DNA of 64,000 nucleotides from NCBI RefSeq assembly GCF_002573715.1, contig NZ_PDHM01000012.1:1368-65367 (forward strand), read 5' to 3'. The notes beneath the pieces are model-generated. The model had not been told where the DNA came from, did no database searches, and saw nothing but the letters and a program-made list of their open reading frames with translations. Source of the DNA: Paenibacillus sp. EZ-K15. Lineage in GTDB: Bacteria > Bacillota > Bacilli > Paenibacillales > Paenibacillaceae. This document shows positions 24,494 through 42,470 of this stretch, one piece after another. The position numbers were made by a program, and so were the translations under genes. How positions within the stretch are numbered: the first letter of the stretch is position 1; every line of letters begins with the position of its first letter.

Positions 24494-24522
24494 TTGACTT
24501 TAGTGTGGTAGTTCATTAGAAT
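24494..24522 (+). promoter_or_regulatory. Sigma-A promoter of the hisS-aspS operon
   Basis: TTGACT at 24494-24499 and TAGAAT at 24517-24522 are exactly 17 nt apart, just upstream of the T-box leader. Confidence 0.8.
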
Positions 24523-24570
24523 CTAAAAATATAATGTTTTGGGTATACTATATTTATGAATATTGGATTT

Positions 24571-24866
24571 CATGACGGGAACAAGTACTCCATCCCCACA
24601 AGACCAGAGAAGAATCCCTTGGCTGTAAGGATTCGCTTGATGAGTGGACGAATGACCTCCCCGAGAACAGACGGCGAAGCAAGCACCGGTTGACCGGTGG
24701 GATAGACAGTAGCCGAACTGCGCGGCCGGGCGTTAAACGGATGAAGCGGATGTTTGAACGCACTGATATATGGTGTGTCAACGCCGGAATGTGGGTGGTA
24801 CCACGGGTGATTATATGAATATCTCTCGTCCCTGTTGTCTTAAGACAGCGGGGCGGGAGATTTTTT
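24571..24866 (+). promoter_or_regulatory. T-box riboswitch of hisS-aspS
   Basis: A tRNA-sensing leader that lets transcription continue when its tRNA is uncharged. The AGTA box is near 24585, the apical stem GAATCC/GGATTC lies at 24612-24633, and the T-box sequence with GGGTGGTACCACG is at 24793-24805. The terminator stem with T6 is at 24821-24866. The likely specifier is GAC (Asp) at 24647-24649, followed by GAATG; the alaS leader in this window has the same GAATG after its Ala codon. The antiterminator bulge reads TGGT, which can pair A73 or wobble with G73 but not with the C73 of tRNA-His. So the sensor probably reads tRNA-Asp although hisS is the first gene. Confidence 0.88.
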
Positions 24867-24914
24867 AGTTTTCACGACTTTTTGCGAAATGACTCCTTAG
24901 GAAGAGGGATGAAG

Positions 24915-26168
24915 ATGGCAAACGAGAAATTCGAGAAACCGACAGGCACGCAGGACATCCTGCCAGGTGCCGTCGAGAAATGGCAGTTTATCGAGGAGAA
25001 GGCACGCGATTTGTGCCGGAGATACAACTACCGCGAAATTCGCACACCGATCTTTGAACAGACCGAGTTGTTCAAACGCGGTGTGGGCGAAACCACCGAC
25101 ATCGTAGAGAAGGAAATGTATACGTTCAGGGATAAAGGCGATCGCAGTATGACCCTCCGTCCAGAAGGAACGGCAGGCGTCGTCCGGGCTTACGTGCAAA
25201 ACAAGCTGTATGGAGAGCCTGACGTCACGAAGCTGTACTACATGGGCCCCATGTTCCGCTACGAGCGTCCACAGGCGGGACGCTACCGCCAGTTCCACCA
25301 GTTCGGCGTAGAGGTGTTCGGGACTGCAGATCCGGCTATTGATGCTGAGGTGATTGCACTGGGTTACAGCTTCTACAAGGAGCTTGGGCTGAACGGGGTA
25401 AAAGCGGAGATTAACTCCGTAGGGACGCCAGAGGTACGGGCGGCTTACCGTAGTACATTACTTGCTTTCCTGGAACCGATGAAAGAGAGCCTATGCTCGG
25501 ATTGCCAGTCACGCATGGAACGCAACCCGCTGCGCGTGCTGGATTGCAAGAAGGACCAAGGGAAGTTCGGTGATGCGCCTTCGATTCTGGACAGCCTGGA
25601 TGAGGAATGCAGCATGCACTTTGAGAAAGTAAAAGGGTACCTGGACGCCATGGGCATCGAGTATGTGATCAATCCAAGACTTGTTCGGGGATTGGACTAT
25701 TATACGCATACCGCATTTGAATTCAAGGCCCAGGGCATCGGCGCAATTGATACGGTAGGCGGCGGCGGACGATTCAACGGACTGGTCGATCAGATCGGCG
25801 GACCGGATCAGCCGGGCATCGGGTTCGGGATTGGTCTTGAGCGAATCCTATTGATCCTGGAGCATCAAGGTGTTAATCTGTCCGCGGCCAAGCCGCTGGA
25901 TGTCTACCTGGTGGCGCTGGGTGAAGCCGCCGAGCAGGAAGTTGCAAAATTGATCTACGAACTGCGGAGCAATGGCGTAGCAGCCGAACGTGATTACCTC
26001 GGCCGGAAAATGAAAGCTCAGATGAAATCCGCCGACCGTCTGCAAGCTCGTTATACCGCCATTTTGGGTGAAGACGAACTGGCGCGCGGAGAAATTGCCC
26101 TGAAGTCGATGGAAACCGGCGAACAGCGTACAGTTAAATTGGATCGTCTGGTACAAGAATTGGTTTAA
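24915..26168 (+). CDS. hisS: Histidine-tRNA ligase
   Basis: A class II synthetase that charges tRNA-His. From the ATG at 24915 the product has 417 residues and begins with a run containing [11 protein letters not shown]. Motif 2 is in [20 protein letters not shown], the histidine-specific signature is [15 protein letters not shown], and the C-terminal anticodon-binding domain follows [20 protein letters not shown] lies 6 nt before this ATG; the in-frame ATG at 24909 is too close. It is the first gene of the T-box operon and is followed 46 nt later by aspS. Confidence 0.97.
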
Positions 26169-26214: not shown

Positions 26215-27990
26215 ATGAAAAGGACGCATCAATGCGGTCACCTGACAACCGCGAACATTGGAGAAACTGTAACACTGAACGGCTGGGTACAAACCCGCCG
26301 CGACTTGGGCGGCGTGCTGTTCATCGATCTTCGTGATCGCAGCGGCATCATGCAAATCGTATTTAACCCGGATTTCTCCGGCGAAGCTTTGGCTGTTGCC
26401 GATAAGGTCCGCAGCGAATTCGTCGTGGCCGTATCCGGTAAAGTCGTAAAGCGTGATCCTGAAACGTTCAACGCGAACCTGCCTACTGGCGAAATCGAAG
26501 TCCAAGTGACAAGCATTGAAGTGCTGAATGCAGCCAAAACACCTCCGTTCTTTATCGAAGACGGCGTGGAAGTGGATGAGCAGCTTCGCTTGAAATATCG
26601 ATATCTGGACCTGCGTCGTCCAGAGATGCAAAAAACGCTGATGCTGCGCTCCAAAGCGTCTAAAGTATTCCGCGACTTCCTCGACGACGAGGGCTTTGTG
26701 GATGTGGAAACGCCGATTCTGACCAAGAGCTCGCCGGAAGGCGCACGCGACTATCTCGTACCGAGCCGTGTGCACGCAGGTGAATTCTTTGCACTTCCAC
26801 AATCTCCGCAAATTTACAAGCAGCTCCTCATGGTGAGCGGGCTTGAGCGCTACTACCAAATTGCACGCTGTTTCCGTGATGAAGATTTGCGGGCTGACCG
26901 TCAGCCTGAGTTTACCCAGGTCGACATCGAGACGTCCTTCATGGAACGCGACGACCTGTTGAACATGATGGAGCAGCTAATGGTGAAGTTGTTCAAGGAA
27001 ACTATCGGCGTTGAACTTGCAACGCCATTCCAGCGTATCAGTTATGCCGATGCGATGGGCAAATACGGCTCCGATAAACCGGATCTTCGCTTCGGTTTGG
27101 AATTGATCGAAATGAACGATATCGTTGCAAACAGCGGCGTCAAAGTATTCTCTTCCGTTATTGAAAAAGGCGGCGAAGTGAAGTGCTTGAACGCTAAAGG
27201 CTGCGGAACTTGGACACGTAAGGAAATCGACGATCTGGGGCCATATGCAGCCCGTTACGGAGCGAAGGGGCTTGCTTGGATTCAAGTGAAAGAAGGCGAG
27301 TTCAAAGGACCTATCGTGAAATTCTTCAGCGAGCAGGAAATTGAAGCGGTAAGAGAACGTACGGGAGCCGAAGATGGCGACTTGCTGCTGTTCTCCGCAG
27401 ACAATAAAAAAGTGGTTGCCGATGTCCTGGGCGCACTCCGCTTGAAAATCGGACGTCAGCTTGGCCTGATCAACGACAACGAGTACAAGTTTGCTTGGGT
27501 GCTGGACTTCCCGCTGTTCAGTTATGATGAAGAGGCGAAGCGCTATGTGGCCGAGCATCATCCGTTCACCCGTCCAAAAGACGAAGATCTGGAATTGATG
27601 GATACGGATCCGCTTGCCGTGCGTGCGGAAGCTTACGACATCGTTCTGAATGGATACGAAGTAGGCGGCGGTTCCATGCGGATTTTCAAACGCGAGATCC
27701 AAGAGAAAATGTTTGCGGCTCTTGGTATGTCGCCGGAAGTGGCGCACGACAAATTCGGTTATCTTATGGGCGCGTTTGAGTACGGCACTCCTCCACATGG
27801 CGGAATCGCCTTTGGGTTGGACCGTTTGGTGATGCTGCTTGCCGGACGCACGAACCTGCGTGAAACGATTGCGTTCCCGAAAACGGCAAGCGCAACAGAT
27901 CTGTTGATGGACGCTCCTTCCCAGGTGGACGGAGGACAGCTGGAGCAGCTGCATATCAAACTCGCCAAGAAGCCGGGCGACGAGAAATAA
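26215..27990 (+). CDS. aspS: Aspartate-tRNA ligase
   Basis: A bacterial-type class II synthetase of 591 residues: N-terminal OB anticodon-binding domain ([19 protein letters not shown]), catalytic core with [25 protein letters not shown] and [19 protein letters not shown], the GAD insert in the middle (about residues 290-410), and motif 3 in [26 protein letters not shown] precedes the ATG. It belongs to the hisS T-box operon. Whether it is the discriminating or the Asn-misacylating type cannot be told here. Confidence 0.98.
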
Positions 27991-42166: not shown

Positions 42167-42470
42167 GATAAACCTATAACCGTACAAATCGATGAGAAAA
42201 TCCAGTAGGCTTTGTGTACCTTGCCCAGAGAACAGGTTCCTGCCCGGACAATTTCCGGCTGGCTGCGAGAACCTGGAAGCGAACCTAAGCCGAATGCTAA
42301 TTTTTGAGTGTGATTCAAATTCACCGGGTGGCTCCCGTTATCCAGCTGTTACGAGGCGATCGTTACATATGTTTTTCCAGGAGATTTCTGCTGGAGGATG
42401 AATGGACGATAACCAGGGTGGTACCGCGAGAACATCGTCCCTGAATTCAATTCAGGGGCGTTTTTTGTGT
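42167..42470 (+). promoter_or_regulatory. T-box riboswitch of alaS
   Basis: The AGTA box is near 42204, the apical helix CAGGTTC/GAACCTG is at 42233-42275, and the T-box AGGGTGGTACCGCG lies at 42415-42428. The terminator hairpin with six T is at 42435-42467. The specifier is probably GCC (Ala) at 42289-42291, at the base of the GGCTT/AAGCC helix and followed by GAATG, exactly as in the hisS leader. The TGGT bulge fits A73 of tRNA-Ala. Confidence 0.9.

Follow-up and report, generated by a model that had tools for sequence, protein, structure and literature searches.

T-box leaders in front of hisS-aspS operons are known from bacilli and lactobacilli, where the available part of PMC5313534 describes them as carrying the sequence GACAC. 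The same excerpt credits Gutierrez-Preciado et al. (2009) with the suggestion that GACAC interacts mainly with aspartyl-tRNA, and the part of PMC4342826 at hand refers to that study for the idea that these leaders sense tRNA-His as well as tRNA-Asp. In PMC7927825, as far as its excerpt goes, the hisS-aspS T-box of S. aureus is termed a histidine T-box. More generally, a figure class in the available portion of Wels et al. (2008; PMC2494555) comprises operons in which the ligase gene comes second and the T-box has a different specificity. For hisS-aspS T-boxes an Asp reading has been published before, and the leader analyzed here, in a window of 64,000 nucleotides from Paenibacillus sp. EZ-K15, is a further case, without an overlapping His codon. 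It shares the operon and the Asp codon with the GACAC type, but its GAC is followed by C, and in each of the 30 best hisS loci of the genus by C or T, so that the overlapping His codon is missing. Two lactobacillar loci in our sample, from Levilactobacillus (L287) and Secundilactobacillus (L300), read GAA-GAC-A-C as in the GACAC type.

The leader aligns to the Rfam T-box model RF00230 with 77.2 bits (E 5e-17), the match running over model positions 1-219 of 219 and from stem I to the antiterminator at 24563-24836 on the forward strand. This score lies below the 93-bit gathering cut-off, and a scan at gathering scores therefore missed it. Upstream, a possible sigma-A promoter (TTGACT-17-TAGAAT, 24494-24522) came out of a consensus scan, which is weak evidence given six promoter-like sites around the leader against a shuffle mean of 2.8. 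According to the Rfam alignment, the helix below the specifier loop pairs GGGA (24577-24580) with UCCC (24658-24661), and ACAAGUA (24581-24587) follows directly 3' of the GGGA strand. The leader contains the conserved bulge UGGN and a competing antiterminator and terminator. The T-box sequence GGTGGTACCACG (24794-24805) holds UGGU at 24796-24799, with N being the U at 24799. The antiterminator (24793-24832) is aligned with GGG 24793-24795 pairing to CCC 24830-24832 and ACGGG 24803-24807 to CUCGU 24825-24829; it is not the minimum-energy fold of 24788-24835 when that segment is folded alone. Its 3' arm, CUCGUCCC, is shared with the 5' arm of an intrinsic terminator at 24821-24867 (end approximate), which folds at -28.9 kcal/mol (z -7.3) and is matched in stability by 0 of 200 shuffles.

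Downstream lie hisS (24915-26168, forward strand; TIGR00442, 514.5 bits; start ATG at 24915 or 24909, picked by eye) and, 46 bases past it, aspS (26215-27990, forward strand; TIGR00459, 816.9 bits). The neighbourhood reads relA/spoT-type gene, D-aminoacyl-tRNA deacylase gene, hisS, aspS and a TcdA-like gene, the last matching below the cut-off of its model. Across all hisS loci examined, aspS follows hisS in 163 of 167. The terminator and the two synthetase genes, together with the covariance-model match below its cut-off, bear out the T-box that the initial annotation had placed upstream of hisS-aspS.

The specifier was located by the register that the other T-boxes of the same genome share. 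Searching the 7.26-Mb genome with an E limit of 10 produced 33 T-box matches, 32 of them credible (the last one scores 13 bits); 30 loci were fetched, and the gene downstream was identified for most of these. In all 18 synthetase T-boxes that entered the comparison, a set without serS (L030, unreadable), hisS itself and the T-boxes of non-synthetase genes, the cognate codon starts 3-6 bases after the G of the loop-E GAA, i.e. 0-3 nucleotides past this triplet; permutations reach a mean of 3.9 and a maximum of 11 in 5000. The loop-E GAA was set blind to the codon by the Rfam alignment in seven of the 18 (argS, glnS, ileS, valS, metG, glyQ, alaS) and placed by eye in the other 11, including one thrS T-box (L026) where it reads GAU. 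Placing the codon immediately 5' of the loop-E GAA fits two of the 18 only (permutation mean 0.9), and the register of the initial annotation, with the codon in front of GAATG, was rejected on this count. In the hisS leader, positions 24650-24652 on the 3' strand of the specifier loop form the loop-E GAA and line up with the GAA in the Rfam consensus, and the specifier region reads GAA-U-GAC-C, which puts the Asp codon GAC at 24654-24656. The GAC chosen earlier, at 24647-24649, is in the wrong register and lies 7 nucleotides upstream of the true one; as both places read GAC by chance, the identity of the codon held and its position did not. For the alaS leader (window positions 42180-42440) the earlier reading GCC gives way to GCU, following GAAU, in a specifier region GAA-U-GCU-A.

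Reading the specifier from the covariance-model alignment, the check put forward together with the original claim, thus returned GAC and no CAY in the specifier loop. Neither CAC nor CAU occurs in the stretch GAAUGACCUCCCCGAG of this loop, and the GACAC motif is absent from it as well, GACCUC standing there instead. The base directly 3' of the specifier is C, at a position where a purine is frequent in T-boxes, and we counted this against the Asp reading; the tyrS T-box and the two thrS T-boxes found here likewise have C at this place.

Several genes of this genome occur in pairs, each copy with its own T-box: alaS-like (L003/L029), tyrS (L004/L010), trpS (L005/L009), thrS (L026/L028) and metG (L013/L018). 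A leuA-like gene is preceded by two tandem T-boxes (L015, L022), both readable as CUC (Leu), and glnS, encoding glutaminyl-tRNA synthetase (L008), has its own T-box with specifier CAA.

The box base was compared with the discriminator bases of the tRNAs. The tRNA-Asp of this genome has G73 and its tRNA-His C73, so that the U of the hisS box can pair with the former by wobble and is mismatched with the latter. In the 28 other T-boxes of the genome counted (without L020, whose gene was not identified, L092, L093 and hisS itself), N is in every case able to pair with the discriminator base of the tRNA that the specifier names, 26 times as a Watson-Crick and twice as a G-U pair, against a permutation mean of 18.6 and a maximum of 24 in 10000; the discriminators of tRNA-Ala and tRNA-Ile entered this count at the values we take them to have. 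However, two T-boxes of histidine biosynthesis genes (L332, hisZ; L339, hisC-hisZ), read as CAC (GAA-CAC-A or GCGA-CAC-A), carry UGGC and UGGA, which also fail to pair with C73 and make the argument from the box base a weak one. We rejected it as decisive proof against His because of these two, and because the CAC-readable loci of family f9 carry UGGC as well. The bases on which the proposed bulge pairing rests were confirmed, but the argument discriminates poorly.

Conservation was followed in the genus and the family. The named relatives nearest to this hisS belong to Paenibacillus, with protein identities of up to 78%. A hisS gene is present in 61 of 61 genus genomes searched, and among the best 30 hisS loci, own genome included, all have GAC at the specifier, with C (17) or T (13) as the next base, a box base U (23) or C (7), and a terminator (hairpin below -15 kcal/mol followed by T5). 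In the family sample of 78 Paenibacillaceae genomes, a few of them shared with the genus sample, a hisS locus exceeded the cut-off in 77, all of which were read: 72 as GAC and 5 as AAC (Asn), 73 by pattern and 4 by eye. The window itself has an Asp codon at the specifier and hisS followed by aspS, the features of an Asp-specific hisS-aspS T-box.

We consider it very probable that this leader is a canonical transcriptional T-box that senses tRNA-Asp through GAC. Uncharged tRNA-Asp (anticodon GUC) would pair with the specifier, and its free 3' GCCA end would pair with UGGU by means of a G73-U wobble. The antiterminator could then form and RNA polymerase would continue into hisS-aspS, while with charged tRNA-Asp the terminator would form. 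Expression of hisS would accordingly be induced when Asp-tRNA-Asp, rather than His-tRNA-His, runs short, and the leader would be expected not to respond to tRNA-His. The conclusion of the initial annotation, tRNA-Asp rather than tRNA-His, finds support in the sequence from the corrected register, from GAC at all 30 genus and 72 of 77 family loci, and from the box base.

A leader that answers to tRNA-Asp through GAC and also to tRNA-His, through an overlapping CAC or CAU codon or an alternative fold, has been suggested in print for hisS-aspS (PMC4342826, in the part available), and 17 of the 72 GAC-type Paenibacillaceae, like many other loci of Bacilli, have GACA[CT], in which a CAY begins two bases further on. 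Yet this overlap is absent here, in all 30 genus loci and in 55 of the 72 GAC-type family genomes, and where it does occur it is also expected from a specifier followed by A and a helix starting with a pyrimidine, a layout that ileS (AUC-A-U) and valS (GUC-A-C) of this genome share; we regard such dual sensing as improbable at this locus. That the leader senses tRNA-His, as its first gene suggests, would agree with the statement in the available part of PMC2494555 that the codon in T-boxes preceding tRNA ligase genes matched the ligase encoded, and two hisS leaders of family f9, which resemble a named Staphylococcus locus, are readable as GAA-CAC-A. A specifier loop free of CAC and CAU, the invariant GAC of the genus and, weakly given L332 and L339, the mismatch of the box U with C73 speak against it and leave this reading scarcely credible.

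Decay to a T-box with little regulatory effect, finally, could be read from the score below the gathering cut-off and from a stem I that, folded alone, is unremarkable in stability (z +1.9). But 14 of the 30 fetched T-box loci of this genome, hisS included, score below the cut-off, so 13 others share this property, and all 30 genus loci preserve the specifier, the box and the terminator, which makes decay highly improbable. We therefore retain sensing of tRNA-Asp as the preferred reading.

Histidine may be followed elsewhere in this genome. No His codon is present among the specifiers read, a set that does not include L020, serS, L092 and L093. A second hisS of the PRK12420 type (NF009085, 601 bits) is found without a T-box match upstream; its leader (L091, 3823-4093, reverse strand) contains a short ORF, MINIKFNQLHHHKQR, ending in LHHHKQR, followed by a terminator whose -23.0 kcal/mol hairpin leads into a T-run. 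Among 20 genus relatives, 13 have a His run in a leader ORF upstream of the second hisS, compared to about 1.4% of shuffled sequences, and all 20 have a hairpin below -12 kcal/mol ahead of a T-run. A looser look at the other seven gave LHYYHKQR in four, LHHYYKQR in one, LYYHHKQR in one and none in L406; the run of these six relatives mixes Tyr codons with His. By the search that gave MINIKFNQLHHHKQR, no ORF having at least three His turned up in front of hisZ in this genome. His leader peptides of hisS* and hisZ in bacilli were described by Naville and Gautheret (2010; PMC2965389, in the part available); the ORF and terminator of the second hisS resemble them, at a different locus from hisS-aspS.

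The AAC variants of the family point to what may set the specificity of this T-box. The five AAC-type leaders (L109, L120, L354, L365, L396) belong to genomes G062, G075, G076, G080 and G092, which all fall within the 15 family genomes that have hisS but no detected AsnRS, although absence is unsure in G092 (75% complete) and G075 (89%). AAC is thus found in 5 of 15 Paenibacillaceae lacking AsnRS versus 0 of 62 having it (Fisher 0.00015 with kinship ignored, 0.0035 without the four genomes below 90% completeness); the other 10 of the 15 keep GAC. Four of the five have C after AAC, which leaves no readable His codon in them. On the hisS tree AAC needs four changes, at least three of them on well-supported branches, and AsnRS presence needs five; lineages without AsnRS make up 25% of the tree length, and the naive chance that all four switches fall there is 0.004. 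A T-box of C. acetobutylicum was reportedly tied to Asn-tRNA synthesis in papers of 2012 and 2013, with tRNA-Asn being sensed; it parallels these AAC variants, although it is not known to belong to a hisS-aspS operon, and the window has Asp. Titles and abstracts from a part of the literature gave no report of Asn-type hisS-aspS T-boxes.

In bacteria without AsnRS, Asn-tRNA is made through AspRS and GatCAB (PMC4206432, in the part available), and the AAC variants therefore suggest that in these relatives T-box specificity may follow the tRNA substrates of AspRS. A wider form of this idea is that the hisS-aspS T-box is set by AspRS substrates throughout: Asp where AsnRS is present, repeated one-base changes from GAC to AAC in Paenibacillaceae that lost AsnRS and need a non-discriminating AspRS with GatCAB, with His sensing falling to a second HisRS that a leader peptide with His codons controls. 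We put this forward tentatively, as a possibility somewhat short of even chances.

Across Bacilli, 90 loci were fetched, 79 had a recognized box and 70 of these were read, giving 48 GAC and 22 AAC; reading in both the genus and the class sought GAC or AAC alone, so CAC types are possible among unread loci. For the named loci, 54 of 80 entered the reading and 49 were read, 31 as GAC and 18 as AAC, with L226 and L289 ambiguous. An automatic helix search for the specifier misread several loci, and the counts were taken from other readings. Across the class AAC does not hold up as a sign of AsnRS loss: 15 of 19 AAC-type genomes have AsnRS (38 sampled). In Planococcaceae, some Bacillaceae and family f9 loci with AACAC occur, in which AAC and CAC are indistinguishable by sequence alone. 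AACAC is accompanied by the box UGGA in hisS T-boxes of family f3 (L132, L136, L146), Lysinibacillus (L255) and Sporosarcina (L261); the UGGA of the Planococcaceae-like f3 pairs neither with G73 of tRNA-Asn and tRNA-Asp nor with C73 of tRNA-His among the f3 tRNAs seen.

If the preferred reading is true, sensing of tRNA-Asp would make this leader a natural T-box that reports on the second gene of its operon and not on the first. It would also make the dual-sensing proposal cleanly testable, since there is no overlapping His codon here of the kind that makes the GACAC type ambiguous. The split between GAC and AAC among the relatives would in turn offer a test of whether T-box specificity tracks a changed route to Asn-tRNA.
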